Shown here: positions 1,012-46,049 of the stretch, in pieces
Layout: each line of letters starts with the position of its first letter
How positions within the stretch are numbered: position 1 is the first letter of the stretch
IMG/VR virus record: IMGVR_UViG_3300025131_000080
Location: 1-46,049 of that record
Strand: one strand, 5' to 3'
Origin: a virus
DNA length: 46,049 nt
The notes under the pieces: model-generated
The model's input: the letters and a program-made list of their open reading frames with translations, nothing else
Told to the model about the DNA's origin: nothing
Database searches by the model: none
Program-made: the position numbers and the translations under genes

Positions 1012-1852
1012 GTGTTTTTTGTTCTTGTACTACGTTTGTGTGGGCAACGCAGAACCCAAAATCTTCATGTTCGGTTTCATAGATGGCATAAGATAGCTTT
1101 CTAAATGCATTAGTCGGTCTGTCTTTAAGCATATCCACCAGTTTTTTGTGCAAGCCGCCTTCGCTTGCTAATCTTTCTTCGTTTATACATATATAATAAC
1201 ACAGTTCGCGGGGGCTGTCAAGGTTAAAAAGCCATTTTTCTTCAAGATTTTCCATATTGAGTATGGCGACTGCGCGAATGCGGTTTAATGCTGCTGGGGG
1301 GGAGGTTTGGCCAATCTCTGGCTCCGAGTATTCGAAGTAGTTTAAATAATGTACAGTAGAAAAAATAGATTCGTTCAGCAAACTATAATAAGTTTTAATG
1401 GGCACTTCTCCCAATGCTTGTTCTAGATGCAGATTAGAAATTAAAGTAATACTCTTAAACATTCCCGAGCGTGCATACTCCTGGAGGACACCGAAAGTAA
1501 TCTTTTCCAAACTCTTAGAAATTCCAGTTAAAAGTGCAGTGTCGGGTTGAATATAAAATAAATCTATCTCTTTGTCGCGAATCTGTTGTAAGATTCCGAG
1601 AACATAATTCGAACTCATCGAAGACCCCATAACAAATACTTGCGCGCGTTCCCGGACGTCTTCAAAAAAATTCTTTAAGTCAGGAATGTGGGCTTCATAT
1701 TCGTCCGGCGTCTTGAAAGATTCTAAATTAAATTCGCGTGAAGTGTTGGTCTCCACTTTGTTGTTTAAACGGTATACATCGTAATTACCAATGCTAACAA
1801 AATTGCTTGCTATAGCAGATGCGCCGTTACCGATGCCGATGATCGAAATCAT
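1001..1852 (-). CDS. Possible degenerate tubulin/FtsZ-fold protein
   Basis: 283 residues, ATG overlapping the polymerase stop by 4 nt (ATGA). Not a confident family member. The N-terminus (MISIIGIGNGASAIASNF) has the glycine-rich strand-loop-helix of FtsZ/tubulin nucleotide folds. A hydrophobic strand then leads into MGSSMSS (75-81), where an FtsZ would have GGGTGTG. A long helix follows, then strand/helix segments that parallel those of the window's clear FtsZ-like protein (41533-42660), and a C-terminal pattern (YAIYETEHEDFGFCVAHTN) like the last FtsZ strands. The GTP-binding loop and catalytic aspartates are not conserved, so it may be a non-catalytic partner or an unrelated Rossmann-like protein. 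Coupling to the polymerase suggests a link to replication or genome handling. Confidence 0.45.
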   Translation of the reverse strand: MISIIGIGNGASAIASNFVSIGNYDVYRLNNKVETNTSREFNLESFKTPDEYEAHIPDLKNFFEDVRERAQVFVMGSSMSSNYVLGILQQIRDKEIDLFYIQPDTALLTGISKSLEKITFGVLQEYARSGMFKSITLISNLHLEQALGEVPIKTYYSLLNESIFSTVHYLNYFEYSEPEIGQTSPPAALNRIRAVAILNMENLEEKWLFNLDSPRELCYYICINEERLASEGGLHKKLVDMLKDRPTNAFRKLSYAIYETEHEDFGFCVAHTNVVQEQKTLDS

Positions 1853-3033: not shown

Positions 3034-3034
3034 T

Positions 3035-24691: not shown

Positions 24692-25987
24692 CTATGGAAG
24701 AGGCATAGTGGTCCCAATAATCTGCCATGCATAAACTCCGGTAGATATTTCTAAGGCTTGAATTCGCATCCCTTCGCCCTCCCCTATTGACACAGAAGAA
24801 GTATACTCAATCTTCTCGCTGCCATTAGGATCTATCTCTGTTTCGCGATGTTTGCTTATATTCTTAATATAATATACAGTACCATCTACAGTGGCTGCGG
24901 CCGGTAATGATGCCGTCAGATTATTAGCGTTGCCGCTCATATAAATAACATTGTCCGATACGAGTAAAGTGTAATTTGCTGTCTTTACTGCATAAGGTAA
25001 CTTCACCCCATGAGTGACTACTAAATTGGAACAAGTCAGAGAGGTACCGGCGGCGCCAGAGGAGCCTGTTTTAAAAGAGAAGGCACCGTCTGAGGCAAAG
25101 GCGCCGTCAGTGCTAAGCATAAATTGGATCTCTCCTTCGCCTCCCGATCCTGTGGAGCCGCCGGCGGCGATGTTTGTCAAGTTCGCGCCATCGCCATAAA
25201 AAGCAGATGCTGAAATATTAACAGAAGCCGTCAGTCCTCCCGCTAGAGTGAGAGTGGTCCCGTCAAACGTTAAATTACCACCGCCGGCAAAACCAGTTCC
25301 CGATTTCGTTTGAACATCATTGTCCGATCCACCGGGATCCCATTTCGTAATATTATCGGTCATATATGTCTTAAGAACCGTCAACGTTGTATTCTTTAAT
25401 ACATTGGAAGAATCTGAATCTGAAATTAAGAAAGTATCATTATTGGACACAGCACCTTTGGCTGTAGCATCGTAGGGATCTACTCGAAGCTTAGAGGATG
25501 TCATCCCCAACCCTCCGTTAGTCGCCATATCCACTGTCACACCATCGGCCGTGCTGATTCCTTCGCCCCCACTAACAACCAATTGGTTACTGTTAGTAGT
25601 AAGTCCGACTCCATAATATATATTGGATGACGAGAGTTGTCCGTCCACATTCGCACCCCCTATCGGAAGCGCAGTTAATCCCCGGGCTGACCCCGAGAAA
25701 TATGAAGCCGTGAGTGATGTGCTGGAGAAGGTTAATGTTGCATCACACGTAGCAGTTCCATCCCCATCTGAAACTATAAGGCGGTCGGCGCTATCGCCAG
25801 CAATTGCAGTAAGGGCCGGGGGAACGATGTCGCCCGCCTCACTTCGAAATGCACTAGCAGACAGAGTACTGGTGAAGGACTTGCTTCCTCCAATAGCTTG
25901 AGTGCTATAATTATCGACCATGCTGGCGATGGCGCCGCGAACTGAATTGGAAAAATTAACAGTTCCCGTCAATGTATTATAAGCCAT
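24692..25987 (-). CDS. Fibre/decoration-type virion protein, longest paralogue
   Basis: 431 residues, ATG at 25987. Starts MAYNTLTGTVNFSNSVRGAI; beta-rich, Ser/Thr/Gly-rich, no charged core. It contains the repeat TFDGTTLTLAGGLTASVNIS then ASAFYGDGANLTNI, also found twice in the 27246-28016 protein. The C-terminal domain (ASLPAAATVDGTVYYIKNIS ... YAWQIIG) is the shared end domain of this cluster. Such 'SASAFYGDGANLT' modules are typical of phage fibre or head-decoration proteins. Position between protease and scaffold genes favours a head-associated fibre over a tail fibre, but this is inference. Confidence 0.6.
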   Translation of the reverse strand: MAYNTLTGTVNFSNSVRGAIASMVDNYSTQAIGGSKSFTSTLSASAFRSEAGDIVPPALTAIAGDSADRLIVSDGDGTATCDATLTFSSTSLTASYFSGSARGLTALPIGGANVDGQLSSSNIYYGVGLTTNSNQLVVSGGEGISTADGVTVDMATNGGLGMTSSKLRVDPYDATAKGAVSNNDTFLISDSDSSNVLKNTTLTVLKTYMTDNITKWDPGGSDNDVQTKSGTGFAGGGNLTFDGTTLTLAGGLTASVNISASAFYGDGANLTNIAAGGSTGSGGEGEIQFMLSTDGAFASDGAFSFKTGSSGAAGTSLTCSNLVVTHGVKLPYAVKTANYTLLVSDNVIYMSGNANNLTASLPAAATVDGTVYYIKNISKHRETEIDPNGSEKIEYTSSVSIGEGEGMRIQALEISTGVYAWQIIGTTMPLP

Positions 25988-26001
25988 TTTTTACCTCTTC
26001 T

Positions 26002-26012
26002 CCTATAAATAG
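26002..26012 (-). promoter_or_regulatory. CTATTTATAG element upstream of a fibre-type gene
   Basis: TCTATTTATAG on the minus strand, immediately overlapping the Shine-Dalgarno region (TATAGGAGAAG) of the 431-residue gene. It is the weakest member of the TACTATTTA set because it is so close to the ATG (15 nt). Confidence 0.25.
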
Positions 26013-26041
26013 ATTATTATTTTGTTTTGGCTCTCAAACAT

Positions 26042-26080
26042 TAAAAAAGAGGACACCCCTCCATATAGGAGGCATTCAAT
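26042..26080 (-). terminator. Possible terminator after the 334-residue fibre-type gene
   Basis: On the minus strand CCTCC-TATAT-GGAGG forms a 5-bp stem with a 5-nt loop, and CTCTTTTTT follows about 7 nt later. The stem is short and the T-run offset, so confidence is low. Confidence 0.4.
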
Positions 26081-26120
26081 ATATTAAAGAAAGAATTTCT
26101 TTAGAAAAGCAAGCTTTAGA

Positions 26121-27125
26121 CTAGAAGATCTTCCACTGAGTAGCATCAACTCTCATCAACGAAACAGAGCCGTTCTCCGACCAAATATCAATACTTACTC
26201 CATCGGCCAAATCATCGATTTTGTCGGCAGCATTGGGAGTGACTTCCAGCGCGTAGCCACCAAGATTAATAGGAGCTTTAACGCGAACAATCTCACCATC
26301 AGACAAGCCGCTCAAGGCAGGCAAAGTCCACGCACGATTTGCAGAAAAGGAACTAGTTCCATAGTTCATTCCGACGCCGAGCGCCGAAGCGTTGTCACCA
26401 ATCGCACCATTAACTGTGACAGCAACGGCGGCAGCTTCAAGCTGATTTGAAACCACACTAAGTCCCGAACCAGCGATATCAGTCAAGAAGCTACCAATGG
26501 CGACAGCTTTCACAAATCCATCTGTGGCGTCGGCGAAGTAAAGTCCGTCCGCTGCGACGTCTAGGGCTGTGTCCCCACTGACTCCCAGAGTAATCTCCGT
26601 GCCAGCCTTAAAGGTAACACCGTTATTAAACGATCCCGAACCATCCACAATCAAAGTGGAAGAACCACTGATGGTGGTAAAAGAACCAGCGGCGGGTGTG
26701 GTTCCACCAATAACTGCATCCACCGTACCGGCATTAATGTCAGCCGTGGTTGCTACTAAAGAAGTAATCGTGCCGACACTCGTCAGAGACGAGGCGAGAA
26801 CACCTGCACCAAGAGTAGTTGCGTTAAGAACGCTGGCGTTGTTGATGAGGTAAGCATCCCCAGTCACGAGGTCGAGACCGTCGCCATCGAAGTGTGCCGT
26901 CTTGGCACCAGCAGCAGCCACACAAAGCGCGGAGCCGTCCCAGTAAAGTGCACCATCGCTACCAGCACCACCGGCGCCGAATCCCATAGTACCCGAAGCC
27001 TCGGTGGGATTGTTGGCGTCACTGTTGATCGCCATCATTTTGTCAGTTTCAACATTAGAGTAGTTGAAGTCCATACCGCCCGAAAGCTGTACCTCCATAC
27101 TACCCGATTGAAATAAATAAGCCAT
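26121..27125 (-). CDS. Fibre/decoration-type virion protein
   Basis: 334 residues, ATG at 27125 with GGAGGG upstream. Starts MAYLFQSGSMEVQLSGGMDF. The body is Gly/Ala/Ser/Thr-rich beta sequence (GTITSLVATTADINAGTVDA, then VIGGTTPAAGSFTTISGSST), the 'GTVDGVIGGTTPAAG' style common in phage fibres and in metagenomic virion proteins. The end domain (WTLPALSGLSDGEIVRVKAP ... SLMRVDATQWKIF) matches the layout of its neighbours. Codon choice is GC-richer than in adjacent fibre genes, similar to gp23, hinting at high expression. Confidence 0.6.
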   Translation of the reverse strand: MAYLFQSGSMEVQLSGGMDFNYSNVETDKMMAINSDANNPTEASGTMGFGAGGAGSDGALYWDGSALCVAAAGAKTAHFDGDGLDLVTGDAYLINNASVLNATTLGAGVLASSLTSVGTITSLVATTADINAGTVDAVIGGTTPAAGSFTTISGSSTLIVDGSGSFNNGVTFKAGTEITLGVSGDTALDVAADGLYFADATDGFVKAVAIGSFLTDIAGSGLSVVSNQLEAAAVAVTVNGAIGDNASALGVGMNYGTSSFSANRAWTLPALSGLSDGEIVRVKAPINLGGYALEVTPNAADKIDDLADGVSIDIWSENGSVSLMRVDATQWKIF

Positions 27126-27245
27126 TTTTAAAAACCCTCCATATTATAGTTTTTTTAGGCAACGTGACAAGCTAGACCAAGCACCTCAAACACCACATTT
27201 GCATGTGGGCTCACTATTAATTAGTAACAAACACCCAATAAAATC

Positions 27246-28016
27246 TTAGTAAACGAAGTATTTGTCAGCCCCATTGCAATAAAGGGAGATAGCTGAGTAA
27301 GGGGATAGCAAAATTATAGAATTTTGACCGTCGATTGTTTGCGTTCCGCTAGCAGAAATGGTAATATTATTGGTATTGGCGTTTCCTGTCTCGTCTTTAA
27401 TAACATATGTTTGACCTGTAGCGAGGGTTGCTGCATTGGGCAAATGTACTGTAATGGCCGTACTGCTGGAATCTACTCCTAGATAATAATCCGCCTGCGA
27501 AGCCGTCATATGGGTCGTAACGGCGGTACGGTTTAATGACATCCCTCCGCCCAGAACCATTCCTATTCCATAGAAGGCTGACGCAGAGATATTAACGCTT
27601 GACGAAAGCGTACCCGAAACTACAAGTTGATGGGCTGGCGCTGTAGTACCACCAATGTTAAGACTACTTGTTACCGATGCATTAGAACCATCGATAACAG
27701 TAAAGATGCCAGGACCACCGATGCCATCTAAATTTGAACCATCGCCATAGAAGGCTGACGCGGAGACATTAACGCTAGCGGTGAGAGTGCCTGCCAGCGT
27801 AAGAGTGGTACCATCAAAGGTTAAGTTTGGTTCTCCGACCAAACTATTAGCGGTACCGCCTACTGTAAGTAAGTTGTCGGTTGTCGGATTAGAAGTAATC
27901 CGAGGGATATTTAATAGGCTTTGCCCATCCCCAATAAAGATGCTACCGGAGATTTGCCCTTCGGAAAGCAATTCGCCGGGGAGATATACGGTTCCCGATA
28001 ATACATTGAACGCCAT
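27246..28016 (-). CDS. Fibre/decoration-type virion protein with internal repeat
   Basis: 256 residues, ATG at 28016. Starts MAFNVLSGTVYLPGELLSEG. Two copies of the SVN(I/V)SASAFYG module occur; at DNA level 27568-27599 and 27745-27776 match over 32 bp with two differences, showing a recent internal duplication. The C-terminal domain (VHLPNAATLATGQTYVIKDE, then TIDGQNSIILLSPYSAISLY) is nearly colinear with the end of the 28036-28710 protein. Predicted to be a trimeric beta fibre or decoration protein by composition and pattern; not experimentally anchored. Confidence 0.6.
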   Translation of the reverse strand: MAFNVLSGTVYLPGELLSEGQISGSIFIGDGQSLLNIPRITSNPTTDNLLTVGGTANSLVGEPNLTFDGTTLTLAGTLTASVNVSASAFYGDGSNLDGIGGPGIFTVIDGSNASVTSSLNIGGTTAPAHQLVVSGTLSSSVNISASAFYGIGMVLGGGMSLNRTAVTTHMTASQADYYLGVDSSSTAITVHLPNAATLATGQTYVIKDETGNANTNNITISASGTQTIDGQNSIILLSPYSAISLYCNGADKYFVY

Positions 28017-28035
28017 TTATTAGGAACTCCCCTCA

Positions 28036-28710
28036 TTAGAATACAAACCAATTTGCACCATTAGAATATAAACTGATAGCTGGATAGCTACCAGATAATT
28101 GATAAGTTGCGGCGCCGTCGATAGTCTCGCTACCCGAAGCGCGCACGGTGATGGTGCCGGCGCGGCCGCTAACCTCATCTTTAATGACATAGACGGATCC
28201 AGACAAAGCATCACCTGCCGCACTGTGGAGGCGGAAATTTACATCTCCAGCAACTGCAACACCATAAAGATAGGTTGCTACTGAACTGGTGCTATTGTTA
28301 GCACCAATGCGCTTATAGCCGCCACGAAAACCATCAACGCGCACTACTTGGGTAGAAATATTTACTTCAAGTGAGGCGGAGGTAGAGGCTGACTGTGCCA
28401 CATAAAAACTACCTGTTCTAACATGTACATCATCATTAGTATTACCGAAATATGTCGAGCCGCTTGCATCGATCTCGGTTACATTTTCAATATGATAATG
28501 ACTAGCGCTGATGGTCCCGCTTACTACGAGGGTGCCCGTGAGGTGCACCTTGTTAGACGCCGATAAAAACGTAAAGTTGTTGGATCCAGAGGTTAATCTT
28601 GAGCCCGCGGCGCCAGAAATAAACTGGATCGATCCTATTGATCCGGTTCCGCCACCGCCTACGGAGCCCGAATCTGCGCAATTTATATATGCCCATCCAA
28701 AAGTGGCCAT
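28036..28710 (-). CDS. Fibre/decoration-type virion protein
   Basis: 224 residues, ATG at 28710. Glycine/serine-rich start (SVGGGGTGSIGSIQFISGAA), beta-repeat middle (LTGTLVVSGTISASHYHIEN), and the shared C-terminal domain (SVYVIKDEVSGRAGTITVRA, SGSETIDGAATYQLSGSYPA, then ISLYSNGANWFVF). The start overlaps nothing and lies one base below the previous stop, so it is in operon with it. Part of the same paralogous cluster; likely virion surface. Confidence 0.6.
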   Translation of the reverse strand: MATFGWAYINCADSGSVGGGGTGSIGSIQFISGAAGSRLTSGSNNFTFLSASNKVHLTGTLVVSGTISASHYHIENVTEIDASGSTYFGNTNDDVHVRTGSFYVAQSASTSASLEVNISTQVVRVDGFRGGYKRIGANNSTSSVATYLYGVAVAGDVNFRLHSAAGDALSGSVYVIKDEVSGRAGTITVRASGSETIDGAATYQLSGSYPAISLYSNGANWFVF

Positions 28711-29426: not shown

Positions 29427-29825
29427 CTACTTTAGTGCTCGCCAAATGGCTGACGAATTCCCAACCAGGGAACTAATGTCTACTCCCGCATCCCGAGGAT
29501 TGCCTAAATCGGCATCTCCTTTGGCTCGTTTAGTATTGGCTAGCGGCTCGGTGCCTTCGAATAGGTTTACCCCATTATAGGCTTCCTCTCCAATTGTTTT
29601 CATTAAATTCTGTTTGTATTCGTTCATCTGCCGATTCGATTGTTGCATCTGCTCTTTGCTTGGTCCGGTTGGGTGGGGGCGCTGGGTCTCTACAATCGTA
29701 TTACCTTGGAGTCCCTTGGCCACTTCTGCTACTACATTAGACAAAAGACCTTCTTCGAGAAGGACTTCGTGAATGCACTCTTTTACGAGGGGCTTAATAA
29801 CCTTCTTCAGTTCTGCTTTTTTCAT
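29427..29825 (-). CDS. Small protein with MK..LKK.I..EE N-terminal motif
   Basis: 132 residues, ATG at 29825 with AAAGGA upstream. The N-terminal helix MKKAELKKVIKPLVKECIHE followed by VLLEEG is a relative of the MKIT..LK.II.EE motif found in three other small proteins here. The rest is polar and probably disordered or helical, ending NSSAIWRALK. No known family. Location between two prohead-type genes and the shared N-terminus suggest a prohead interior component. Confidence 0.6.
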   Translation of the reverse strand: MKKAELKKVIKPLVKECIHEVLLEEGLLSNVVAEVAKGLQGNTIVETQRPHPTGPSKEQMQQSNRQMNEYKQNLMKTIGEEAYNGVNLFEGTEPLANTKRAKGDADLGNPRDAGVDISSLVGNSSAIWRALK

Positions 29826-32815: not shown

Positions 32816-33632
32816 CTGAGCCGATCTCCTTCACTAAACTTTGAGTTTTCATTATCATTAAAAGTAAATCATCATCAATAACGCACTCAGAAAAGCCATC
32901 CAAACGTTCGATGATTTGTTCTGTTTTAGATAACATCTCGCTATCTGCACTAATCTCGACATTTTGAGTGGCTACGTGGAGGTGTTCCTTTAAGCGAACA
33001 ATCTCCTCATTCAAAAAAACCTTAAGTTCTAAAGCATTATCTGTAAACGATGAGATATAATATACTAATAGTTCTTTTTGCTCTTCCAATAATTCTTTTT
33101 CATATTTAGTATTAAACTTTTCAGTAAACGTCTTAACAACGATGGTGTCAACTTCCCCTAGAGAAGTGGAGTCCGGGGTACTGCTTGTCATGTTCTGGAT
33201 AATTTCGCCTTCTAATAATACTTGATCTTTAGGAGAAGTTTTGTCAGAAAAAATACGTGCAATGGAAGCCAAGGATTTATAATTGGGAACAAAATTATTA
33301 AAGACAGCAGGTTCAAGTTCCTTGTTTACATCACTAATGAGAATACTTTGTTCCTTAAACAGTCCGTTGGGATCAATCAGGCGATGGGCTAGTTTAGCCT
33401 CTCGTAAGATCTTTTCAGATGTCTTTTGATCGAGGTTTTGGTTTTCATATAAAGCGCGGTGGCACTCCAAATCTCTACGTAATAATGAATCTTCGTGGAA
33501 ATGTTTTTTAAGGAGGGCGATTGCGGTGGATCGTCGATGAAGATCTTTTTTCAAAATAGCAACGGTGGCCTCTCTTAAAAGGGCTTCGTATACAAAGGCG
33601 CTATTCCTCTTTTTATTATGTCTACTCTTCAT
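32799..33632 (-). CDS. Conserved helical protein next to the portal gene
   Basis: 277 residues, ATG at 33632, overlapping the portal stop by 11 nt. It begins MKSRHNKKRNSAFVYEALLR followed by EATVAILKKD; I associate this 'RHNKKRN.AF.YE.L.RE' start with genes beside the portal in T4-like phages of aquatic origin, with no known function. Almost entirely alpha-helical and charged. In T4 the equivalent place holds small prohead core genes (67, 68), so a head-core role is possible but unproven. Confidence 0.65.
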   Translation of the reverse strand: MKSRHNKKRNSAFVYEALLREATVAILKKDLHRRSTAIALLKKHFHEDSLLRRDLECHRALYENQNLDQKTSEKILREAKLAHRLIDPNGLFKEQSILISDVNKELEPAVFNNFVPNYKSLASIARIFSDKTSPKDQVLLEGEIIQNMTSSTPDSTSLGEVDTIVVKTFTEKFNTKYEKELLEEQKELLVYYISSFTDNALELKVFLNEEIVRLKEHLHVATQNVEISADSEMLSKTEQIIERLDGFSECVIDDDLLLMIMKTQSLVKEIGSDGSSS

Positions 33633-35625
33633 CGTGTGGCTCCGTAAGTTTGTTACTACTATTTTCTAATCCGGTAATAAGATCTCGGAGAGATTCGCTT
33701 ATCTGGAAGAGTTGAGTTTCTTCCAAGCGCTCCCCTGCTTTATAAGTAGGTTCCTCTCTCTCATAAATACCTGTTGCTGCTCCACCGATTTTGGCTGCGG
33801 ATTGTAAATCGTCGAGCCCGGGCACTACATTGCGGCGCGCTGAGCTACCTTTTTCACGGTTATATTTAGCGGCGTTAGAACGCTGGCGGGCGCCGGCGCG
33901 CCGGCGGTCGACCTTCTTAGGGTAATATACTTTTCCTTTCGACCCAGGGGTGAGTCGCGGCTCATTACGAGAGCCCGGGGGGACAGCGAGCAGTGTGGAA
34001 TCATCGGCGGCGCCTTCATCGCCGGCGGGCGGTTCGGTGCCGGCATCTCCGGCGGGCATTTCGGCGCCGCCAAGTTCTCCGCCTAGGTCACCACCAAGGT
34101 CTCCACCTAAATCTCCACCTAAGTCTCCTCCTAAGTCTCCTCCGCCCATTCCTGCTCCTTCTGCGGCTGCGGCCTCAGCCACCTGTTGAAGAGCGGCATC
34201 GTGTTTGCGGTCGTAATACATTTCGCGCTGGTTGCGGGTAAATTCTTCATGAGACATGCCAAATACATTTTCGGTAACCCAGCGGCGAGAGAAGTAACCT
34301 TCTGTGGCTGAGCCGGCAATGTCGAACTTTTGCTTCCAAAATTCAAGCTCTTGTAGTTCAGCAATCTTAGAAGGATTATTAAGAGATAAAGTAAAGCTTA
34401 ATAAGTCGTCTCCGCGGAAGCCTAATGTATAGAGGTGAATAATACTAATCTTTGTAAGCTCTGCGATGAGGACTCTCTGCAATCTCTGAATGGTCCGAGC
34501 GAATCGGATATCCTTTTGTGCAAGAGTGGTCTTGTCTTCTTCGCCACCTTCGCCCATTGTAAGGTAGGACTGCGGGATCTTAAGGGCAGAGAAAAGCTTG
34601 TCGCGTAAATACTTGATATCATCAATCTGCGAAATGTTTGATGCGCCGGCTAGCGATTGGATATCTGTAGCGGATCCTGGTCGAATAGGAATAAAGTAGT
34701 CTTCTTCAATGGACATGGGATTATAGCGCAAGTCAACGCGGCCGGTTGCAGGATCAATAACTTGATGGCGCTTCAGTTGCGTCACCACCTTTTCCATATA
34801 TTGTTCGACTTCATTCGGAGGCACGGCTCCTACATCAATCTTAAACACGCGGCGTTCCGAAGACCTCACAATCCGGTATGCCATCATAGCATCCTCCATC
34901 AACACCAACTGGCGCCAGATGCGGCGAGATGCTTCCAAAATGGAAGTTCCATAGGGAGCATACTTATCGTTTCCTAGGACTCGGAAATGAGCAACCTGCC
35001 AATTTTCAAATGTCATGCCGGCGGAGTTCCACTGGTATTGAATATAATTGGGATTGGTGGAGTCTTGTCCTTCTAAGCGCTCAATTTCCTGTGACGGAAT
35101 AGCAATGACGGATTGAACTCCGTATTTATCATCGATATCCAAGTAAAGAAAGAAGTCCCCATATTTACACATGGTGCGCGCCCAGCCAAAAAGGTTATAC
35201 TTGAGATTCAAAATACTATCAAAGAGAACATTAAGGACTGCCGCGATTTCTTCGTTCGGGCACTTAACATTTAACATCGGACGCAACTCCGAATAGGTCG
35301 TCATCTCATCTGCATAAATATCTAAGGTGGATGCAATCTCCGGCATGTATTCCATTTGATCAAAATCAACATACCGCTCGGAGCGACGTTGATTAGCAAT
35401 GGCATTGACGCCAATATTATCTAAAGGGCTGTATAGCGTCTTTTTAAACTGCTGACCTGATGCTGATTTAAATCGAGATGAAAACCTATCAAGGTGTTGA
35501 CGCCGGATGCGGCGTCCGGATTGGGAACGATAGCTAACAATCGGACCTGAAAAAAGCCTAGTTAAGGCTTTAAATAATCCTGATTGACTATTGGCTGGGT
35601 TGTTTTTCGGGGGAGTGCGTGCCAT
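33622..35625 (-). CDS. 20: Portal protein (gp20-like)
   Basis: 667 residues, ATG at 35625. The T4 portal core is clear: RYVDFDQMEYMPEIASTLDI with YADEMTT, the wing/stem region (DIKYLRDKLFSALKIPQSYL then TMGEGGEEDKTTLAQKDIRF), and RTIQRLQRVLIAELTKISII. It forms the 12-subunit vertex that nucleates the prohead and channels DNA. It is longer than T4 gp20 (524), owing to a C-terminal extension from about residue 480 with six GGDL/GGEL repeats, an acidic Gly/Pro/Ala stretch and a basic segment (KKVDRRRAGARQRSNAAKYN). The end overlaps the next gene. Confidence 0.92.
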   Translation of the reverse strand: MARTPPKNNPANSQSGLFKALTRLFSGPIVSYRSQSGRRIRRQHLDRFSSRFKSASGQQFKKTLYSPLDNIGVNAIANQRRSERYVDFDQMEYMPEIASTLDIYADEMTTYSELRPMLNVKCPNEEIAAVLNVLFDSILNLKYNLFGWARTMCKYGDFFLYLDIDDKYGVQSVIAIPSQEIERLEGQDSTNPNYIQYQWNSAGMTFENWQVAHFRVLGNDKYAPYGTSILEASRRIWRQLVLMEDAMMAYRIVRSSERRVFKIDVGAVPPNEVEQYMEKVVTQLKRHQVIDPATGRVDLRYNPMSIEEDYFIPIRPGSATDIQSLAGASNISQIDDIKYLRDKLFSALKIPQSYLTMGEGGEEDKTTLAQKDIRFARTIQRLQRVLIAELTKISIIHLYTLGFRGDDLLSFTLSLNNPSKIAELQELEFWKQKFDIAGSATEGYFSRRWVTENVFGMSHEEFTRNQREMYYDRKHDAALQQVAEAAAAEGAGMGGGDLGGDLGGDLGGDLGGDLGGELGGAEMPAGDAGTEPPAGDEGAADDSTLLAVPPGSRNEPRLTPGSKGKVYYPKKVDRRRAGARQRSNAAKYNREKGSSARRNVVPGLDDLQSAAKIGGAATGIYEREEPTYKAGERLEETQLFQISESLRDLITGLENSSNKLTEPHDEE
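34078..34150 (-). repeat. Tandem 12-bp repeat encoding GGDL in the portal gene
   Basis: Six degenerate 12-bp units encode GGDLGGDLGGDLGGDLGGDL plus GGEL in the portal's C-terminal extension. Units differ mainly at third codon positions, so the protein repeat is under selection or is ageing after slippage. Copy number may vary between related phages. Confidence 0.8.
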
Positions 35626-35633
35626 TTAATTTC

Positions 35634-37220
35634 TCACTTAATAATCCATTTATATTGCTCATAGATGTGTTGTGCATCTGTTAACTGTTTGTCAAAAGCA
35701 TTATCTTTTTTGTAACCATGTTGTCCGGGGATACGGGTATTCATAGTAGTGCGGCTCGTAACAATAGCGTCCACAAACGCACGTTGGTAATTTAAATCAC
35801 GAGCACTGGCTTGAATTGCAGTGTCTCTTACCCAGCATGTAATAGCCAGGGCCATGATTAAATCATCGTTATACCCCTTCATTGCTTGGGGTTTGCCATT
35901 TTTCCAAATAAAAGTTTTCATTTCATTAACCGTGCGCGACGAATACACCTTAATTAGTTTATTTCTTATAAACTCTTCTAATTTTGCAACTATTAGTGGG
36001 CGTGTCTTCATAGTAGTAGAGAAGCCAGGAATAGCTGACGATATACCTTCCGCTTGATATTGCTCAATATATTCGTGTGTCGACTTTATAGAATAATATA
36101 TATTAGGATAACCGTATTCAACGAGTTTGTCAAGTACAGTATAGCCAATATTATTATTTTCTACTACTATCATCGCATTTCCGAACTCGCCACCTACCTG
36201 ATTAAGCATGTTCGCGAACAAGTCTGGTGTAACCTTTCCTTGATATTCGCCAATGATTTCAAGAGTTTCTAGTTTTAAAACATGAAACGTAGAAAAATCG
36301 GCTCCATCGCCGCGGGCCACATCCACCACAATTATATAATTACACGTAGGATCAAATTCTTCCCAAATCCAGAAGTTGCGATCAAAACCGGTTCGATGTT
36401 TAGGCTCCTTCACATTAGATAATAACCATTCCATACATTCTGGATCAATAACTGTTTCGCCGGATGTGTTAAAATTACACTGTAACTCTTGCGCGATCTG
36501 GCGCTTGGACATATTTTTGGTCTCTTTCTCATACCATGTCTCGTCTCGATCTGGGTGGACCTCCCATGGTAATATGGTAAGATTAAAGTTGTTGGCGCCG
36601 GCTTCAGCATCAACACAAGTTTTATGGAACCAATTTCCTACACCGTTGGGGGTTGATAGTGCAATACAACGCCCACCCGTAGATAGCGTGGGATATAGAC
36701 CAGTCCACAATTCGCCTAAGCCTTCAATGTGGGCGGCCTCATCTAATACTAAAAGGGACAATGCCTCCGAACGACCGGCATCGCCTGACGTAGAAGCCGC
36801 TTTAATAGACGAACCATTAGATAGTTCAAAAGAAGTGCGGTTGTCCACACTAATGGTGGCAATCTTTAGCCATTCGGGTACGTTGCGCATAATGCCTTTA
36901 ACCTTCTTTACAAGGTTGCCTGCCGTCGCAAACTTTGTTGCCATTACAAGAATGGCTTTATCCCGATGGAATAACATCATCCATACAATATAGCCGGCTG
37001 TGATAGTGGAGATACCAAGCTGTCGGGCTTTCAGGATAACGTTAAAACGATAATCGTTAAAATCATTAAGGAGTTCATCTTGAAAATCATAAGTATCGAA
37101 TAAAATCAGCCCGTGCATCGGATGGGATATACGGGCATAAGTCTTCAGAAAATAGGAAGGATCTTTACCGCACTTTAAAATCTCGTTGACTCGCTTCTTT
37201 TTGTCTAGTTGAAAACTCAT
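35634..37220 (-). CDS. 17: Large terminase subunit (gp17-like)
   Basis: 528 residues, ATG at 37220 in an ATGA overlap with the preceding small gene. ATPase domain: Walker A VILKARQLGIST (about 61-72) with the T4-type 'SRQLGKT' form, Walker B SLLVLDE (155-161, E161 catalytic), and the coupling motif ALSTPNG. RNase H-type nuclease domain: D300 in YIIVVDVARGDGAD, a Glu in MIVVENNNIGYTVLD, and Asp in NDDLIMALAI. It powers DNA translocation into the prohead and cuts the concatemer. Shorter than T4 gp17 (610), mainly at the termini. No gp16-like small terminase is recognisable beside it. Confidence 0.94.
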   Translation of the reverse strand: MSFQLDKKKRVNEILKCGKDPSYFLKTYARISHPMHGLILFDTYDFQDELLNDFNDYRFNVILKARQLGISTITAGYIVWMMLFHRDKAILVMATKFATAGNLVKKVKGIMRNVPEWLKIATISVDNRTSFELSNGSSIKAASTSGDAGRSEALSLLVLDEAAHIEGLGELWTGLYPTLSTGGRCIALSTPNGVGNWFHKTCVDAEAGANNFNLTILPWEVHPDRDETWYEKETKNMSKRQIAQELQCNFNTSGETVIDPECMEWLLSNVKEPKHRTGFDRNFWIWEEFDPTCNYIIVVDVARGDGADFSTFHVLKLETLEIIGEYQGKVTPDLFANMLNQVGGEFGNAMIVVENNNIGYTVLDKLVEYGYPNIYYSIKSTHEYIEQYQAEGISSAIPGFSTTMKTRPLIVAKLEEFIRNKLIKVYSSRTVNEMKTFIWKNGKPQAMKGYNDDLIMALAITCWVRDTAIQASARDLNYQRAFVDAIVTSRTTMNTRIPGQHGYKKDNAFDKQLTDAQHIYEQYKWIIK

Positions 37221-39279: not shown

Positions 39280-39470
39280 TAGCTACTCCACAACCACCAG
39301 CCCAATGCAAGCCCATCGAGCCACACCAAACCTACGAGCACCCACCAGCTTGCGCGTGCTGCGCCTTCTCTGATTTCGCTCCATACGGACCATCCTACAT
39401 CGAGAACTAGTCCCCACACATTTGCTGCACCGGTGGTGGCGCAGTCCCATACCTTTCTTAATAAACTCAT
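39279..39470 (-). CDS. Small membrane protein
   Basis: 63 residues. ATG at 39470 in an ATGA overlap with the preceding stop; longer in-frame starts upstream would lie inside that gene. One strong C-terminal hydrophobic, Trp-rich segment (WWVLVGLVWLDGLALGWWLW) and a weaker amphipathic segment (AANVWGLVLDVGWSVW). Could be a holin or antiholin-type partner of the following gene; no family recognised. Confidence 0.55.
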   Translation of the reverse strand: MSLLRKVWDCATTGAANVWGLVLDVGWSVWSEIREGAARASWWVLVGLVWLDGLALGWWLWSS

Positions 39471-40291
39471 TTTTTCTTTCCTTTCTTTTTTGGTTCTTCC
39501 ATGGGGGCGGAGCACAGATGCTCTGCTTCACCTTGTGATAAGCTTTCTGGTCTGTCCCCATCGGGTGCGTCTTTCATTGCGCACATAAAATCTCTTTGCT
39601 TCTTTGAATAAACTTCATCTAAATACCCTTCAAGCTCTTCTTTGACATATTGAGCTAATTGAGGTTCGCCTTCCAATTCCGATCCTTGCATTCTTTTAAG
39701 TTCGTTGGCTAATTGTTCTGCCTCTTCCAAATCAAACCCATACCTGTCAATTAGCTGAATCAATATGGATTCGACTTCGTAGGGCATGCCTTGTGTAAAG
39801 TGACGTACTGCGCTTATTTGTCCTTGATCGGCTTCACGTAAATTGTGGTATCCCATGTGGGCTTTTAAGTCTTCTTTGATTGCTTTTTTTAATATATTCT
39901 GGAGCCATGAGGGCTTTCCGACCGGGACTTCCATGGATTGTGTAGGGGCAGACGCGTTTGCGCGGACCAATTCCCACGCCAAGACATCAATTGCTTGTTG
40001 CCCCACGTCTACATTAAAACTAGCCAAAATGTGGATAGCTTGACGGCGGTACTCTTTAGGGGGTCGCTTGGGCGGCGGGGTCATCTCATCCTTGGCTCGT
40101 TGCCAATCGCCGACGCCGCCACCTAAAATCGCATCTGCGCGCAGGGCTTCTGGATCTTCTTCTTCGGGTGGGGCTAAATCTTCAGGAGTCTGATCCCTAA
40201 GAGCCTTGTGAGGATTGAGTTCCGCTAGGGGTCCTCCGACCTCTTCTAAAATCAGCTTCAACAATTCTGCTTTTGTAATCTTTATTGACAT
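39467..40291 (-). CDS. Unidentified protein with KITK..LL..I.EE N-terminal motif
   Basis: 274 residues, ATG at 40291, overlapping the preceding gene by 10 nt. The first 17 residues, MSIKITKAELLKLILEE, carry the motif shared with genes at 40846 and 37378. A polar proline-rich region (DLAPPEEEDPEA, PPPKRPPKEY) is followed by mostly helical sequence with ALDVLAWE- and FDLEEAEQL-type helices. The end contains YSKKQRDFMCAMKDAPDGDR and EAEHLCSAP, two Cys in a compact segment, then a Lys-rich tail. Function unknown; the N-terminal tag suggests packaging into the prohead. Confidence 0.6.
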   Translation of the reverse strand: MSIKITKAELLKLILEEVGGPLAELNPHKALRDQTPEDLAPPEEEDPEALRADAILGGGVGDWQRAKDEMTPPPKRPPKEYRRQAIHILASFNVDVGQQAIDVLAWELVRANASAPTQSMEVPVGKPSWLQNILKKAIKEDLKAHMGYHNLREADQGQISAVRHFTQGMPYEVESILIQLIDRYGFDLEEAEQLANELKRMQGSELEGEPQLAQYVKEELEGYLDEVYSKKQRDFMCAMKDAPDGDRPESLSQGEAEHLCSAPMEEPKKKGKKK

Positions 40292-40479: not shown

Positions 40480-40610
40480 TGCAATCCGGCCCAAGTTAAT
40501 ACTATAACTAGTCCGATGATTGTTCCAAACGCTACAGTAGAGCCGAGAATATCGCTCCACTTGATGCCGCGCCAGTCAAGCCAGTGATTGAGTCTATTCC
40601 AAAGCTTCAT
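40476..40610 (-). CDS. 44-residue membrane protein
   Basis: ATG at 40610 overlaps the preceding stop by one base (TGATG), and its stop overlaps the next start by 4 nt. Basic/aromatic N-terminus (MKLWNRLNHWLDWRGIKW) and one C-terminal membrane helix (STVAFGTIIGLVIVLTWAGL). Supported by coupling on both sides and by topology. Function unknown. Confidence 0.5.
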   Translation of the reverse strand: MKLWNRLNHWLDWRGIKWSDILGSTVAFGTIIGLVIVLTWAGLQ

Positions 40611-40846
40611 CAATAGTCCCCACTTATAAGATCTTGTGCAACCTCGGCAGCCGGAGTTCCCTGGTACCATAAATCATACAGATTAACGTCAGAAGCCAAT
40701 TCCTCTGCGGACACATATTCGTCAGACAAGCTTTCAATATGTCCGTCTACTTCCATCACCCATTGTGCAAACTCACGGAGTCCACGATTCATATTCGTAA
40801 TCTCCTCTTTGATGATCTGCTTGAGTTGGGATTTAGTGATTTTCAT
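40610..40846 (-). CDS. Small protein with MKITKSQLKQIIKEE motif
   Basis: 78 residues, ATG at 40846 with GGAGGAG upstream. The first 16 residues (MKITKSQLKQIIKEEI) are the clearest example of an N-terminal helix shared by several proteins here. The remainder is acidic and helical, ending AAEVAQDLISGDY. No known domain. The same N-terminal helix on otherwise unrelated proteins suggests a localisation or assembly tag. Confidence 0.65.
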   Translation of the reverse strand: MKITKSQLKQIIKEEITNMNRGLREFAQWVMEVDGHIESLSDEYVSAEELASDVNLYDLWYQGTPAAEVAQDLISGDY

Positions 40847-41008
40847 TTATACTCCTCCCCACAGGTGCCAGCCAGCGGCAAGTCCGATAGCCATGCACGT
40901 TACTTTCGTAACTGCTAGCAGGACATATTCTTCTAATGCGCCGTTGAGCAAGACAAGCTGTTTGGTTCGTGCCCATGTATCTCGCGCTAAATCTCGTGGT
41001 GTGCTCAT
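40847..41008 (-). CDS. 53-residue membrane protein
   Basis: ATG at 41008 overlaps the preceding stop by 4 nt; the longer reading frame above it lies inside the upstream gene. A charged N-terminal helix (MSTPRDLARDTWARTKQ) is followed by one hydrophobic segment (YVLLAVTKVTCMAIGLAAGW). The stop is immediately followed by the next ATG. Likely inner membrane; function unknown. Confidence 0.55.
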   Translation of the reverse strand: MSTPRDLARDTWARTKQLVLLNGALEEYVLLAVTKVTCMAIGLAAGWHLWGGV

Positions 41009-41529
41009 TTGGAACCCTTGTACGTCCCAGGGTTGTTGGCCGGACGGTGGCGGCGGTACGGCGCCCGTTCCACGTCGTCCGGGGAGTCTCCCTTTCTCCA
41101 TTCCGCGGCGTCCTTCTTCGTGGCCGCTGTGGTCCACTTCTCGGAATCAGGGGCGTCCCCTTCCTTCCCAAAGAACTTCATTAGTTTGTAGGCAAGTTGT
41201 TCCATCGTCATGCCGGCTTTGTTAACAAACTTTATCAAGGGCTCGTTCTTGGGGTCGTTCACCCAGACTTCTGCTTCTTCCTCTGTCTTTGGGATCCCAA
41301 ATTTCGTGGCAATCTTCTCTAACATCCCCAACATCCACTTGTCTACTGCTGTGGCGTCGTCGTGTGGGGCGAATTCGGAGCGCTTGCCGCGTTGCAGATG
41401 GTCGTCCCTTCTCTTGGGAGACCAGTCAAAGGTTTCGTACTCTTTGAGAAGACTCTCTACAAATTCGTATTCTTCTGTCTTCTCTTCCATAAAATATCGA
41501 GGGTCGATAAACTTCTTGTTCTTTCTCAT
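41005..41529 (-). CDS. Unidentified charged protein below the tubulin-like gene
   Basis: 174 residues, ATG at 41529 with AAAGGA upstream, 3 nt below the tubulin-like stop. Lys/Glu/Asp-rich. A helical centre (AVDKWMLGMLEKIATKFGIP, then VKNKAGMTMEQLA-type sequence at about 110-125) is followed by a disordered basic C-terminus (PYRRHRPANNPGTYKGSK). No recognisable domain. Close coupling makes it a candidate partner or regulator of the tubulin-like protein, by position only. Confidence 0.6.
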   Translation of the reverse strand: MRKNKKFIDPRYFMEEKTEEYEFVESLLKEYETFDWSPKRRDDHLQRGKRSEFAPHDDATAVDKWMLGMLEKIATKFGIPKTEEEAEVWVNDPKNEPLIKFVNKAGMTMEQLAYKLMKFFGKEGDAPDSEKWTTAATKKDAAEWRKGDSPDDVERAPYRRHRPANNPGTYKGSK

Positions 41530-41532
41530 TTG

Positions 41533-42660
41533 TTATTTTCCTTTGGGTAGCCCATTCATACATAGTATGGCAACGAGCCCAGGTACGTTATCATTAATAT
41601 AAACGCCTGAAAAAAGTGTGTCCGTTCTGCCGCCAACATATCCAATCGCAGCATCCATGTGCTTGCTAATCTCTGGATCGTTTGCCATCTCAGACGACGC
41701 AATCAATAATAGGGCGCCTGTCTTGGGCTTTCCTTTGGGGGCTGGGCATGGTGAGCGCTTCATGCAATTCTGGAGAATCATTGCTCCAAGATTGGGGGTG
41801 GCGGGATCTTTCACCATGGTCGAACCAATAAACATTCTTTGTGGAGTTCTCAGACATCTTTCCAGATCTTTCGTGTCAAACGATTGAATCGGAGACTTCT
41901 CGGTGGAGAGCTTTAATACTTGTGTCCACAGCTTTGCGAACGCAGTATTAGCGGAAGGGAACAGACTAAGCATGCCAACCTTGCCGCGTAACAACTTAAC
42001 TTGACGTTCGTTGTCTAAAACGATATGGGTATGCTTAGAAACATCGTTAAGTAAAGCCAAGGCATTCTTGCTGATGGTGGGGTTTAGGCTTTCTTGCGCT
42101 GTGGGCCATGACGTAATATACACTACCTCGCCTTCGGCTTGCACAGATTTGAGATAGCGCTCAAACACACTGTGTAGGGAAGCGACGGCAGAACCAGTTC
42201 CACCGCCGCCTCCGGCGCAAACGAACAGCCAGTCGACTTTGCCTAATTTTGTGCGGAGGGCATCTTCTACGACTGTACTGTTTGCATCAAACACTGCTTT
42301 TCCTAAATTCACATCTTTTCCAATGCCATCGGCATCGGGAATCAAAACCACATGCTTATCATCCACATCGCTAGGAACATCTTTAGCAGTGGTATTGACA
42401 AGCAAAGTCCTATTGTAGCCAAGATCGAGAAAGGCTTTGGCCATCTTGCCTCCACCTCCACCTACGCCAACAATGGCACAGTTCAGCGATGCGGGAATCG
42501 TGTTCTCCGGAAGCAAGTTCTCGTGAGTTACTTCTTCATCGTCTCCATAATGATCGACAAAATCAAAATCATTAGTGGTGGTGGGTGTGGGGGTGTCGAG
42601 AGCAGGCGGGTTAACCTCGCTAGCTGTCTCGGCAAAATCAAAATCATCAGGGTTGTTCAT
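41533..42660 (-). CDS. Phage FtsZ/tubulin-like GTPase
   Basis: 375 residues, ATG at 42660. The whole tubulin/FtsZ fold can be traced: CAIVGVGGGGGKMAKAFLDL (61-80, first nucleotide loop), LVNTTAKD, the signature GGGGGTGS (150-157) in LFVCAGGGGGTGSAVASLHS, FDTKDLERCL (261-270) at the T7 catalytic loop with both acidic positions kept, RMFIGS, and the C-terminal TLFSGVYINDNVPGLVAILC strands. It should bind GTP and polymerise. Phage tubulins (PhuZ, TubZ) centre genomes or segregate plasmid-like phages. The N-terminal 55 residues are acidic with a duplicated DFDF motif, whereas FtsZ carries its peptide tail at the C-terminus. It lies 12 nt below a ParB-fold gene. Confidence 0.88.
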   Translation of the reverse strand: MNNPDDFDFAETASEVNPPALDTPTPTTTNDFDFVDHYGDDEEVTHENLLPENTIPASLNCAIVGVGGGGGKMAKAFLDLGYNRTLLVNTTAKDVPSDVDDKHVVLIPDADGIGKDVNLGKAVFDANSTVVEDALRTKLGKVDWLFVCAGGGGGTGSAVASLHSVFERYLKSVQAEGEVVYITSWPTAQESLNPTISKNALALLNDVSKHTHIVLDNERQVKLLRGKVGMLSLFPSANTAFAKLWTQVLKLSTEKSPIQSFDTKDLERCLRTPQRMFIGSTMVKDPATPNLGAMILQNCMKRSPCPAPKGKPKTGALLLIASSEMANDPEISKHMDAAIGYVGGRTDTLFSGVYINDNVPGLVAILCMNGLPKGK

Positions 42661-42672
42661 ATAAATCTCCGT

Positions 42673-43581
42673 TTATTTATTTTTCGTTTTGTTTCCAAGC
42701 GCATTACCAATAGCAGTTAAATACTGTAGTGTTTCATCTGTTCCTAGAGTATCTAAATCAACGCGAGCAACAGTTCCAATATCAGCAGACGGATCATTAA
42801 GCATTGTAGCAGCCCAACGATGATGTCCATCTAAAATATGACCCTTTAGGGACGCATAAGCATCTAAGTTTCCACCTGAAATTCCCTGAACTGCCATGCC
42901 CAATCCTTTGGGTAAAAGAATATTAGTCTGCGTAGGTATGCCTTTGGCTGCCGGAAATCCGCCACCAAGTTCAATCTTGATAAAGTCGTCGTTTTCGTCT
43001 CCGTCATTTGCGGCTAAACCACCAGTCATAAACTTGTTGGCATTCGGATCCTTACCAACCATGTCAATGGCGTTTGGAGCAGGAGCATCCGTCTTCTCCA
43101 TCATGTCAACATTGAATTTACCGCCGGGTGTTAAAGCATCTTCAACATCTTTAGGATCACCAGTGGCGTCTGGAGGTCCAGGTAAAAACGGCATTTTAGA
43201 TTTTGGCAAACCTTCTTCTGGAATCTTAGCACCAATCGCGGCTGCGCGCTCAGCAAATTTTTCAATTCCACCAATACTTTCAACCCACTGTTTTAAAGCT
43301 TCCACGGTTTTAGTAGTATACCATTTTCCAAGTTGAGCAGCTTGAAGTTGTTTAAAAAGATCCCCACCTTGTAAAAGCTCGTTCATTACTTTGGCAGCTA
43401 GTTCTGGCTTGCCGGCAAAAACTTTAAAGCTGGTCTGATCTGTTAGTTGCAAACCAGAACCTTCTGGGGCTTCGGGCTGTTGTTCGGCAGGTGCCGCTCC
43501 AGGCTGTTGTTCGGCAGGTGCCTGTTGTGGGATTGGCTGTTCGTTTAAAAACTTCTTCCAATTTTCCATCAAGAGTTGCAT
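42673..43581 (-). CDS. ParB/sulfiredoxin-fold protein
   Basis: 302 residues. ATG at 43581 shares one base with the upstream stop (TAATG); an upstream start at 43641 would lie inside that gene. N-terminus MQLLMENWKKFLNEQPIPQQ, then a Pro/Gln/Ala repeat (PAEQQPGAAPAEQQP). The C-terminal domain contains KGHILDGHHRWAATMLND (about 246-263), the 'G...DGHHR..A' signature of ParB-like nuclease folds, followed by VARVDLDTLG. These folds bind nucleotide or DNA in partition, or act as nucleases. A central helical region (about 45-130) is unassigned. Adjacent to the tubulin-like gene, which raises a partition-type role, but the N-terminal tag looks like those of virion-interior proteins. Confidence 0.65.
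   Translation of the reverse strand: MQLLMENWKKFLNEQPIPQQAPAEQQPGAAPAEQQPEAPEGSGLQLTDQTSFKVFAGKPELAAKVMNELLQGGDLFKQLQAAQLGKWYTTKTVEALKQWVESIGGIEKFAERAAAIGAKIPEEGLPKSKMPFLPGPPDATGDPKDVEDALTPGGKFNVDMMEKTDAPAPNAIDMVGKDPNANKFMTGGLAANDGDENDDFIKIELGGGFPAAKGIPTQTNILLPKGLGMAVQGISGGNLDAYASLKGHILDGHHRWAATMLNDPSADIGTVARVDLDTLGTDETLQYLTAIGNALGNKTKNK
43475..43522. repeat. 21-bp direct repeat in the ParB-fold gene
   Basis: An exact 21-bp unit occurs at 43475-43495 and 43502-43522, 27 bp apart, encoding the repeated PAEQQP of the N-terminal linker. Exact identity suggests a recent duplication. Confidence 0.85.
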
Positions 43582-46049
43582 TATTGATTTACCTTCGCGT
43601 AGCCTTTTTTCTTTTCTATTACAATCTGCATATCGACGCAATCTTTGAGAGAGTCTAAATGCGAGATCAAGAGAACGTTCTTAAAATATACCTTAATTAG
43701 TTCCAAGATCCGAATAAAACCCTCCATATTTTCCTCGTCCAATGCCGTGCCCGGCTCATCGAGGATGAACAAGTCTGACTTTGGAAGCGACGAAACACTC
43801 AAAAGCGCCAACCGGATGGCCATAGCTCCCATTGTCTTTTCGGCTCCTGACGCCATCTCAATAGGTCTTTCATCGTGTTTAGGGTGCTTAATAAAGATGT
43901 CAAGCTTGTTTCCGCTTGTCTCAAAAAACACTTCGAACTCAACAATGTTGGCGAGAACTTTTGCAATCTCTTGATTAATCACTGGAATCTTTTTCTTGAT
44001 AATGTCATAGGCGATTCCGTTCGGATGCATGCATTGCATAAGTAAATCGTATGCTGCATAACTATTCTGAAGGTCTTGGTATTCTTTGCTTTGAGATTTG
44101 AGCGATTCGATTTTCTCTTCATAAGAGCCTACCTGTCGTACAATCTCTAGTGTCTCATTATCGCAAGTTTCAATCATTTCCTTTTTGCTATCAATTTTCG
44201 TTTGATAACCTTGTCGCTTTTTGATGACCTTTTCAAGTCCGTCAATAACCTTCTTGTTTTGGTTGTATTCGGCGACCTTCGTGCCAAGTTCCGACAACTC
44301 TTGGTCAACTGTCGTCTTTGTGTTCTTGTTTCGTTCGCACTCTAATTGCAGCGCAGCAACCTCCGCTTTTAGTTCTACAATCAATTCTTGTGTTAAACGA
44401 TATTCTTCCAGCTTTTCAGTGGTGTCATCGGGAGACAACGTTTCGAGACGCATAGCGGCTGCATGGAGGTCGGCTTCGATTCCGGGCTTATTAGCTACAT
44501 CGATATAGGCGTCCTTGATGAACCGACATGAAGGATAAGAATCGCCACAAGGGATGCCCTTAAGAAGCTTTTCCTTTTTGCCGATCTTTTCAAGTTCTTC
44601 TCGAAGGTTCATGATACTGTGGTCCAGAATCTCGATTTCCGCTTTGTCGGCTGTGAGGGCGGCATGATCGATAAGTTCGAGCAAGCTTTCGGATATCACC
44701 ACTTTCTGTTGTTTAACATCGACTGTCGCTATTTGAGTTATTATCTTTTCGTCCAAGAGCCGTGACAACACTTGCTTATCTTTTTGCTCTGTCACAACTT
44801 TAGTGATGTCAATGAGCTTGCCCGGAATAGAACTGATCTTCTCGTCTAAACGTCTCGCACCTTCATTCAAAAGCTTAAGCTCTTTGCGATAATCCTCACA
44901 CGTTGTGCGATTAGTTTCCGCTTGTGTTGTGAGTTCTTGAAGGCTTGTGTCTAACGCCTGTAGTTCTGTGTTGTAATCTCGATCCTCATACTTGCGCAGG
45001 AGAGCTTTGGCTTCAACAGAATCATCTTTGGCCATCTTAAACTTTTGGTCAAATAACTCCAAATCGAGGAACTTGGCGATGATTTCCTTTCGACGGGTCG
45101 AGCCTTCATCAATGAAGCCCAATGCGCCGTGCTGGCTTGCCAGTGAAGACACCAAAAAATCATCCATGGAGCCGAAGTGCTTTCGAATATTTGCGTCGGT
45201 CTGATTGCGCGTGGTGCCATTTAGAGATGTGGTTTCATCTGTGACGGGATCATAGACTTCAAAGTTCAAATCTGTTTTGGCTTCTAGGGTCTCAACACCT
45301 TTCAAACGCTTCGTGTATTTTTCAGACGTGCGCTTAATGTTGTAGACTTTGTGTCCGATCTCGATCTCCAAAACCCCTTCGCAAGATTCTTGATGTTGAT
45401 TAATAAGGTTAAGGTTTTTGCGCTCATTCTTTGAGGTGGTGTTGAACAGCGTATACAGGGCTGCATCGATGATGCTAGACTTGCCGCTAAAGTTCTTCCC
45501 AAAAACGCCAATGATGCCGTTAAGGTTTTCAAAGTCGATTGAGTTGCCTTCGCCATAATTAAACAGATTGTCCCACTTAAACGACTTGAGCTTCCAGTTT
45601 ACGTTTCTAGAGATCTCTTCGCGTTCTTCGATTATCTTGTTGTATTTGCTATTAAGTTCAAATACGCGTTCTAAGGTTGTGGCGTCGGTCTGGTAGTCTG
45701 AAAGGAATTCATCGATCAATTCTTCCTGTACCTTAATGTCTCGCAGGTTTTCAGTCTTAATGCCGTCAGTTAGATCTTCTACATTACCGCGCTCGCCGGC
45801 GGCTCTGTTAAGAAATGATATGCTCTCCGGTTTAAAGCGGTGCTTCGCAATGTCCATGGCTCGGCGCATCGTGTTAAGCGGAAGGTTATTGTTGCTAACC
45901 AATCGCAGACGTGCGCCTTGAGGCACTTGGAGTTTGCGAGGCATGCGCCCCTTAGCCGTGAGCGGGATTGTAAAGAACGGTTTAGGATTTTTAAAGACAT
46001 GGGGCTCAATCTCCCATTCATCTTTAGAATCAATCTCCCAAATTAAAAG
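43581..46049 (-). CDS. 46: Mre11-Rad50-type nuclease/ATPase fusion (gp47-gp46), 5' end cut off
   Basis: Open across 822 codons with no stop between the window edge and the first internal ATG (45944), so the gene starts outside. The first about 150 residues look like the end of an Mre11/gp47 nuclease: LLIWEIDSKDEWEIEPHVF, then PFFTIPL, GARLRLVSNNN and a helix with VQEELIDEFLSDYQTD. A Rad50/SbcC/gp46 ATPase follows: LKSFKWDNLFNYGEGNSIDF, Walker A VFGKNFSGKSSIID (about 183-196 of the visible protein), long coiled coils around a Cys pair (PCGDSYPSC, a zinc-hook variant), signature MASGAEKTMGAMAIRLALLS, and Walker B LFILDEPGTALDEE. It processes DNA ends for recombination-dependent replication. In T4 these are two genes. 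Confidence 0.8.
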   Translation of the reverse strand, partial: LLIWEIDSKDEWEIEPHVFKNPKPFFTIPLTAKGRMPRKLQVPQGARLRLVSNNNLPLNTMRRAMDIAKHRFKPESISFLNRAAGERGNVEDLTDGIKTENLRDIKVQEELIDEFLSDYQTDATTLERVFELNSKYNKIIEEREEISRNVNWKLKSFKWDNLFNYGEGNSIDFENLNGIIGVFGKNFSGKSSIIDAALYTLFNTTSKNERKNLNLINQHQESCEGVLEIEIGHKVYNIKRTSEKYTKRLKGVETLEAKTDLNFEVYDPVTDETTSLNGTTRNQTDANIRKHFGSMDDFLVSSLASQHGALGFIDEGSTRRKEIIAKFLDLELFDQKFKMAKDDSVEAKALLRKYEDRDYNTELQALDTSLQELTTQAETNRTTCEDYRKELKLLNEGARRLDEKISSIPGKLIDITKVVTEQKDKQVLSRLLDEKIITQIATVDVKQQKVVISESLLELIDHAALTADKAEIEILDHSIMNLREELEKIGKKEKLLKGIPCGDSYPSCRFIKDAYIDVANKPGIEADLHAAAMRLETLSPDDTTEKLEEYRLTQELIVELKAEVAALQLECERNKNTKTTVDQELSELGTKVAEYNQNKKVIDGLEKVIKKRQGYQTKIDSKKEMIETCDNETLEIVRQVGSYEEKIESLKSQSKEYQDLQNSYAAYDLLMQCMHPNGIAYDIIKKKIPVINQEIAKVLANIVEFEVFFETSGNKLDIFIKHPKHDERPIEMASGAEKTMGAMAIRLALLSVSSLPKSDLFILDEPGTALDEENMEGFIRILELIKVYFKNVLLISHLDSLKDCVDMQIVIEKKKGYAKVNQ

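Follow-up and report, generated by a model that had tools for sequence, protein, structure and literature searches.

The window analysed here is the virus record IMGVR_UViG_3300025131_000080 over its whole length of 46,049 bases, and the genes and motifs given below all lie on its minus strand. A gene at 41533-42660 (ATG start) encodes a 375 aa protein, P0001, that was assigned to the tubulin/FtsZ family of GTPases from profile, structure and tree evidence, and a Shine-Dalgarno-like GGAG can be read from the sequence at 42667-42670, 6 nt 5' of the start codon. Immediately upstream in the direction of transcription is a CDS (42673-43641) for a 322 aa protein with a ParB-like ILDGHHRW motif, and the gene run shared with the tubulin also includes an SbcC/gp46-like recombination ATPase (43581-45944; phrog_77, E 4.8e-56). 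The downstream CDS (41005-41529, 174 aa) starts 3 nt past the tubulin stop codon, and neither this protein nor the 322 aa protein had a library match. Genes for small membrane proteins come after it in transcription order, together with a spanin-like gene and the terminase. The first-pass annotation of this DNA had placed the gene just upstream of small membrane-protein and packaging genes. It had also taken the carrier to be a T4-like phage, and this is borne out by the major capsid protein gp23 (21522-23360; PF07068, E 5e-73) and a T4-type terminase large subunit (35634-37220; PF03237, E 1.9e-8), which give the window its T4-type character. The nearest cultured phages by capsid and terminase are Flavobacterium phage immuto (terminase 46% to its TerL) and Microcystis phage Mel-JY01, while Rhodothermus phage RM378 is an additional near relative by capsid only.

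P0001 carries a T1 nucleotide loop, GVGGGGGK (residues 65-72, 42445-42468), a T4 tubulin signature, GGGGGTGS (residues 150-157, 42190-42213), and a T7 catalytic loop, FDTKDL (residues 261-266, 41863-41880). All three had been read at first pass (as an intact first nucleotide loop, a GGGGGTGS signature and an acidic FDTKD loop), and each motif occurs in 92 of 92 distinct relatives. Within the T7 loop, D262 and D265 are invariant and align with both T7 aspartates of FtsZ (NLDFADVKTIM). Pfam Tubulin (PF00091) matched P0001 at 35.6 bits (cut-off 33; E 1.5e-8) and matched 37 of 37 aligned relatives, and hhalign against an alignment of 30 bacterial FtsZ sequences gave a probability of 96.6 and E 6e-10 over the full length, with T7 placed on T7. 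The best match in a PDB sequence search was CetZ (3zid). The AlphaFold model (pLDDT 86.7, pTM 0.83) has the two-domain tubulin fold, including the C-terminal strands that had been called from the sequence; residues 1-45 are disordered (pLDDT under 50), and the last strand stops at residue 371 of 375. VIA-align matched the model to B. cereus TubZ (4ei7, Z 32.2 over 312 residues, 2.4 A), H. volcanii CetZ2 (4b45, Z 31.8), the TubZ of phage c-st (4xcq, Z 28.7) and FtsZ (Z about 28). That P0001 is a full-length homologue within the tubulin/FtsZ superfamily is, on this evidence, close to certain. The outcome that would have counted against this, a lack of any tubulin/FtsZ match or a match to an unrelated Rossmann family, did not arise, as profile and structure searches both returned tubulins; a chance glycine-rich Rossmann enzyme is ruled out by the Pfam match, the AlphaFold model, the structural matches and hhalign. 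A host or prophage FtsZ is likewise ruled out, by the phage setting, the tree and the score against the FtsZ equivalog TIGR00065 (E 6e-9, 35.6 bits, well below the 295.2 cut-off).

Relatives of P0001 come mostly from marine viral contigs of up to 236 kb (others reach 203 and 206 kb). A scan with P0001 gave 79 viral loci, and at least 269 of 599 stretches were confirmed in a scan with the family alignment; the family members counted here are 92 distinct near-full-length sequences (a lower bound) that are 52-97% identical. The T1, T4, T6, T7 and C-terminal strand motifs are kept in all 92, T5 in 90 and a strict NTT in 81. Such conservation is what selection on nucleotide-driven polymerisation would give, and because of it P0001 is very likely, as judged from sequence, to be a polymerising GTPase. 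No family member was found by tblastn among 50,697 cultured-phage records, a search that a very diverged copy could escape, nor by family profile or Pfam tubulin in immuto, Mel-JY01, RM378 and the uncultured phage LR756508, where a diverged copy could also escape; the family profile was positive in 21 of 21 carrier records. Two immuto genes next to the terminase (192 and 193) were considered as tubulin candidates and rejected, being without tubulin motifs. Contigs with the gene occur inside four MAGs, three of them from Flavobacteriales and one from Halobacteriovorax, and the gene was present in 2 of 399 of a Flavobacteriales sample. The MAG contigs are probably co-binned phage contigs, and the host of the carrier phages leans weakly toward Bacteroidota.

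A phylogeny with FtsZ, as proposed at first pass, was inferred with IQ-TREE from 34 rows comprising the family, FtsZ, PhuZ, CetZ and TubZ-like sequences. The family forms one clade (100/99), apart from FtsZ (100/99), PhuZ (100/100) and CetZ (100/99), each of which is separate. It is only weakly joined with CetZ and TubZ (81/77), the latter represented by just two TubZ-like plasmid rows, both long-branched. The chimallin family phrog_4795 was detected in 0 of 16 carrier records (mostly fragments, several over 200 kb), while the phiKZ control was positive. The separate clade and the lack of chimallin in the carriers make the family a distinct lineage of phage tubulins, outside the nucleus-forming phages. 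With PhuZ of the Chimalliviridae (phiKZ gp39 and relatives) it has in common a phage-encoded tubulin-fold GTPase, the T4 signature and the T7 acidic loop, and perhaps a role in positioning DNA or capsids. It differs from PhuZ in having its tail at the N-terminus rather than the C-terminus and in lacking the C-terminal helix and acidic tail. A PhuZ-like spindle, positioning a replication compartment that would amount to an undetected phage nucleus, is the best-known role of phage tubulins, and 17 of 37 members have weak matches to the PhuZ family phrog_4733; however, the position outside the PhuZ clade, the chimallin result and the T4-type capsid and terminase leave it very little probability.

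TubZ (Bacillus plasmids, Clostridium phage c-st) includes the best structural match, and this, along with the weak grouping in the tree, would suit a DNA partition motor of the TubZ type, by which the phage genome would be maintained as a plasmid-like element in a carrier or pseudolysogenic infection. A partition motor of this kind appears unlikely, however: the region 40600-46049 has no iteron run like tubC, no recognisable TubR adjoins the tubulin gene (the neighbours being without library match), and the TubZ C-terminal helix and tail are missing from P0001. Identity to TubZ is about 16-20%. Archaeal CetZ is similarly close in structure and gave the best PDB sequence match, but the CetZ rows form a clade of their own. 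With bacterial FtsZ, P0001 shares fold and motifs (hhalign 96.6%), but identity is about 19%, the N of the NxD T7 motif is replaced by S, T, A or V in the family, and the FtsZ C-terminal peptide is absent. Common superfamily membership and the TIGR00065 match would still allow a decoy or poison that co-assembles with or caps host FtsZ, so that division is blocked, the cell elongates and more phage is made, and FtsZ-binding phage proteins such as T7 Gp0.4 are known (PMC13423816). We consider this improbable given the low identity and bit score, the retention in 92 of 92 members of all residues for a GTPase cycle and polymer of its own, and a location among head and lysis genes rather than in an early takeover setting. 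Two proteins of uncultured phages in BFVD (A0A6J5RW92 and A0A8S5UFG9, automatically named 'FtsZ') have the same fold as P0001 but are just 16-18% identical to it, and no literature study of them was found.

The C-terminal peptide of FtsZ is a partner-binding element. The P0001 chain ends 4 residues past its last strand, and so the protein is without the C-terminal contact parts of PhuZ and TubZ. Its disordered N-terminal tail (residues 1-45) is acidic and carries the motif DFDFVDHY (residues 31-38, 42547-42570), of the type D-F-D-F-x-x-x-Y (pattern [DE][FL][DG][FM][VIAL]-x(2,3)-[YF]), which recurs in 35 of the 36 family members. Its distance to the first glycine loop and the folded domain is nearly constant (30-32 residues), and only 0.04% of shuffled tails matched the pattern. 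A partial second copy, DFDF (residues 6-9, 42634-42645), lies within 27 nt that are 85% identical to the main copy. Because the C-terminal tail is missing, the N-terminal motif is put forward as the partner-binding element, and by analogy it probably recruits a partner.

Genes for the head, neck or packaging (one or more) were present in the fetched flanks of 50 of the 73 loci of 9 kb or more (a raw count). The slot occupied by the tubulin gene varies between lineages: in loci L021 and L048 it is between gp23 and the neck and sheath genes, in L016, L153 and L157 it is close to portal or core genes and the head maturation protease, and in the window, L003 and L171 it is ahead of the lysis genes and terminase. 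As a recognised head gene was missing from the fetched flanks of the other 23 loci, the head-gene neighbourhood is frequent but not universal. Relatives of the 322 aa upstream protein also occur close to the tubulin in two gene arrangements (window, L003 and L013; L153 and L157). Of the roles suggested at first pass, the frequent placement among head genes favours the moving of DNA or capsids. It would also fit a GTPase or scaffold that serves capsid assembly without forming filaments; such a protein, which might be part of the virion, would have kept the fold and lost dynamic polymerisation, and the missing C-terminal tail for lateral contacts points the same way. The T7 aspartates, however, act only where one subunit contacts the next. 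Their full conservation thus speaks for polymers, and a non-filamentous scaffold, while slightly better placed than the decoy or the partition motor, is still unlikely.

The reading we prefer is that of a GTP-driven phage filament that organises virion assembly, with the N-terminal tail recruiting a cargo or partner, and we give this proposal as a whole a probability of roughly 0.55. The protein would bind GTP and its subunits would join head to tail into dynamic filaments, each supplying the T7 aspartates that complete the GTPase site of the next. It would be made during infection, probably late, alongside the head, packaging and lysis genes. The filaments would hold procapsids or replicated DNA in place or transport them and in this way organise virion assembly in the cell, and the disordered tail with its D-F-D-F-x-x-x-Y motif would recruit the cargo or partner, as C-terminal tails do in FtsZ and PhuZ. 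Polymerisation, GTPase activity, late timing and cargo are inferred here. The role in assembly and transport, for which gene neighbourhood is the one line of evidence, is evenly balanced when taken by itself. PhuZ filaments of other phages transport capsids and centre DNA (PMC13282480, PMC4244570), and a T7-type D198A mutant of the PhuZ of phage RAY polymerises at all induction levels (PMC10299810). The carrier T4-type phages probably build a cytoskeletal filament, with no sign of a phage nucleus.

In the literature searched, phage tubulins are PhuZ of nucleus-forming phages and TubZ of c-st (PMC3678025, PMC13282480), and nearly all described cases come from nucleus-forming phages. When marine jumbo phages were surveyed in 2022, the phiKZ-like cluster was the only one in which tubulin was recorded (PMC9123017). 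The first-pass statement that T4-type phages are not classically known for tubulins is to be taken with caution: tubulin hits have been reported in 'a handful' of large phages outside the Chimalliviridae (PMC11835377), and the BFVD 'FtsZ' entries exist. The literature searched held no description or study of this T4-type family. That a large T4-type clade, mostly marine, has a strictly conserved tubulin of its own while chimallin was not found suggests that, within infected cells, phages use cytoskeletal organisation more widely than they use a nucleus; the role of a tubulin in a phage expected to assemble heads without a nucleus becomes testable, and work on the tubulin superfamily gains a deep branch that is new.

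A second protein with a predicted tubulin/FtsZ-like fold (283 aa) is encoded at 1001-1852, between the genes for DNA polymerase A and gp32, its start overlapping the polA stop by 4 nt. The adjacent polymerase (1849-3141) is a short family-A enzyme of 430 aa in which an exonuclease domain is not evident. Pfam, PHROG and PDB sequence searches with the 283 aa protein were without match. Its AlphaFold model is of moderate quality (pLDDT 60, pTM 0.65; about 90 over the first 70 residues), but in Foldseek against the PDB the best 42 matches were all FtsZ (E 1e-5 to 8e-4), and in VIA the 50 matches listed were all tubulin-superfamily chains (Z 11.7-13.2). An FtsZ-like fold is likely on these models, structure prediction being its whole basis because hhalign against tubulins gave nothing usable. 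The T4 loop reads GSSMSSN in place of GGGTGS and the acidic T7 residue is not retained throughout its family, so the protein would be a pseudo-GTPase. It is present in 13 of the 26 carrier records and in 9 of the 10 longer than 120 kb, and relatives were found at L081-L129 and L208-L215. In all inspected cases it lies between DNA polymerase and gp32-like genes (one with a small extra adjoining gene), while at the matching place in Mel-JY01 neither it nor the polymerase A gene is present. A deep tubulin branch (the L063 record of 235,681 bases, L061, L066 and L074) adjoins dehydrogenase, DHH phosphoesterase and lysis-like genes, and the second protein was not found in these four records. A two-protein system, in which P0001 is the active filament-forming GTPase and the G-box-less protein, produced from the replication operon, serves as a cap or anchor of the filament and tethers it to the genome under replication, is a speculative and rather doubtful extension; if true, a phage cytoskeleton would link replication and head assembly without a phage nucleus.

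Four proteins of the window, encoded at 42673-43641 (the 322 aa upstream neighbour), 40610-40846, 39467-40291 and 29427-29825, have similar short basic/hydrophobic starts (MKITKSQLKQIIKEE, MSIKITKAELLKLILEE, MKKAELKKVIKPL and MQLLMENWKKFLNEQ) that recall the capsid-targeting sequences of T4, and by analogy these products may be internal head proteins. Another four CDS within 24692-28710 (24692-25987, 26121-27125, 27246-28016 and 28036-28710) look alike by eye in composition and C-terminal end, two of them resembling each other very closely, and are possibly repeated fibre or head-decoration proteins. The portal-like protein (33622-35625) has a GGDLGGDLGGDLGGDLGG repeat close to its C-terminus.
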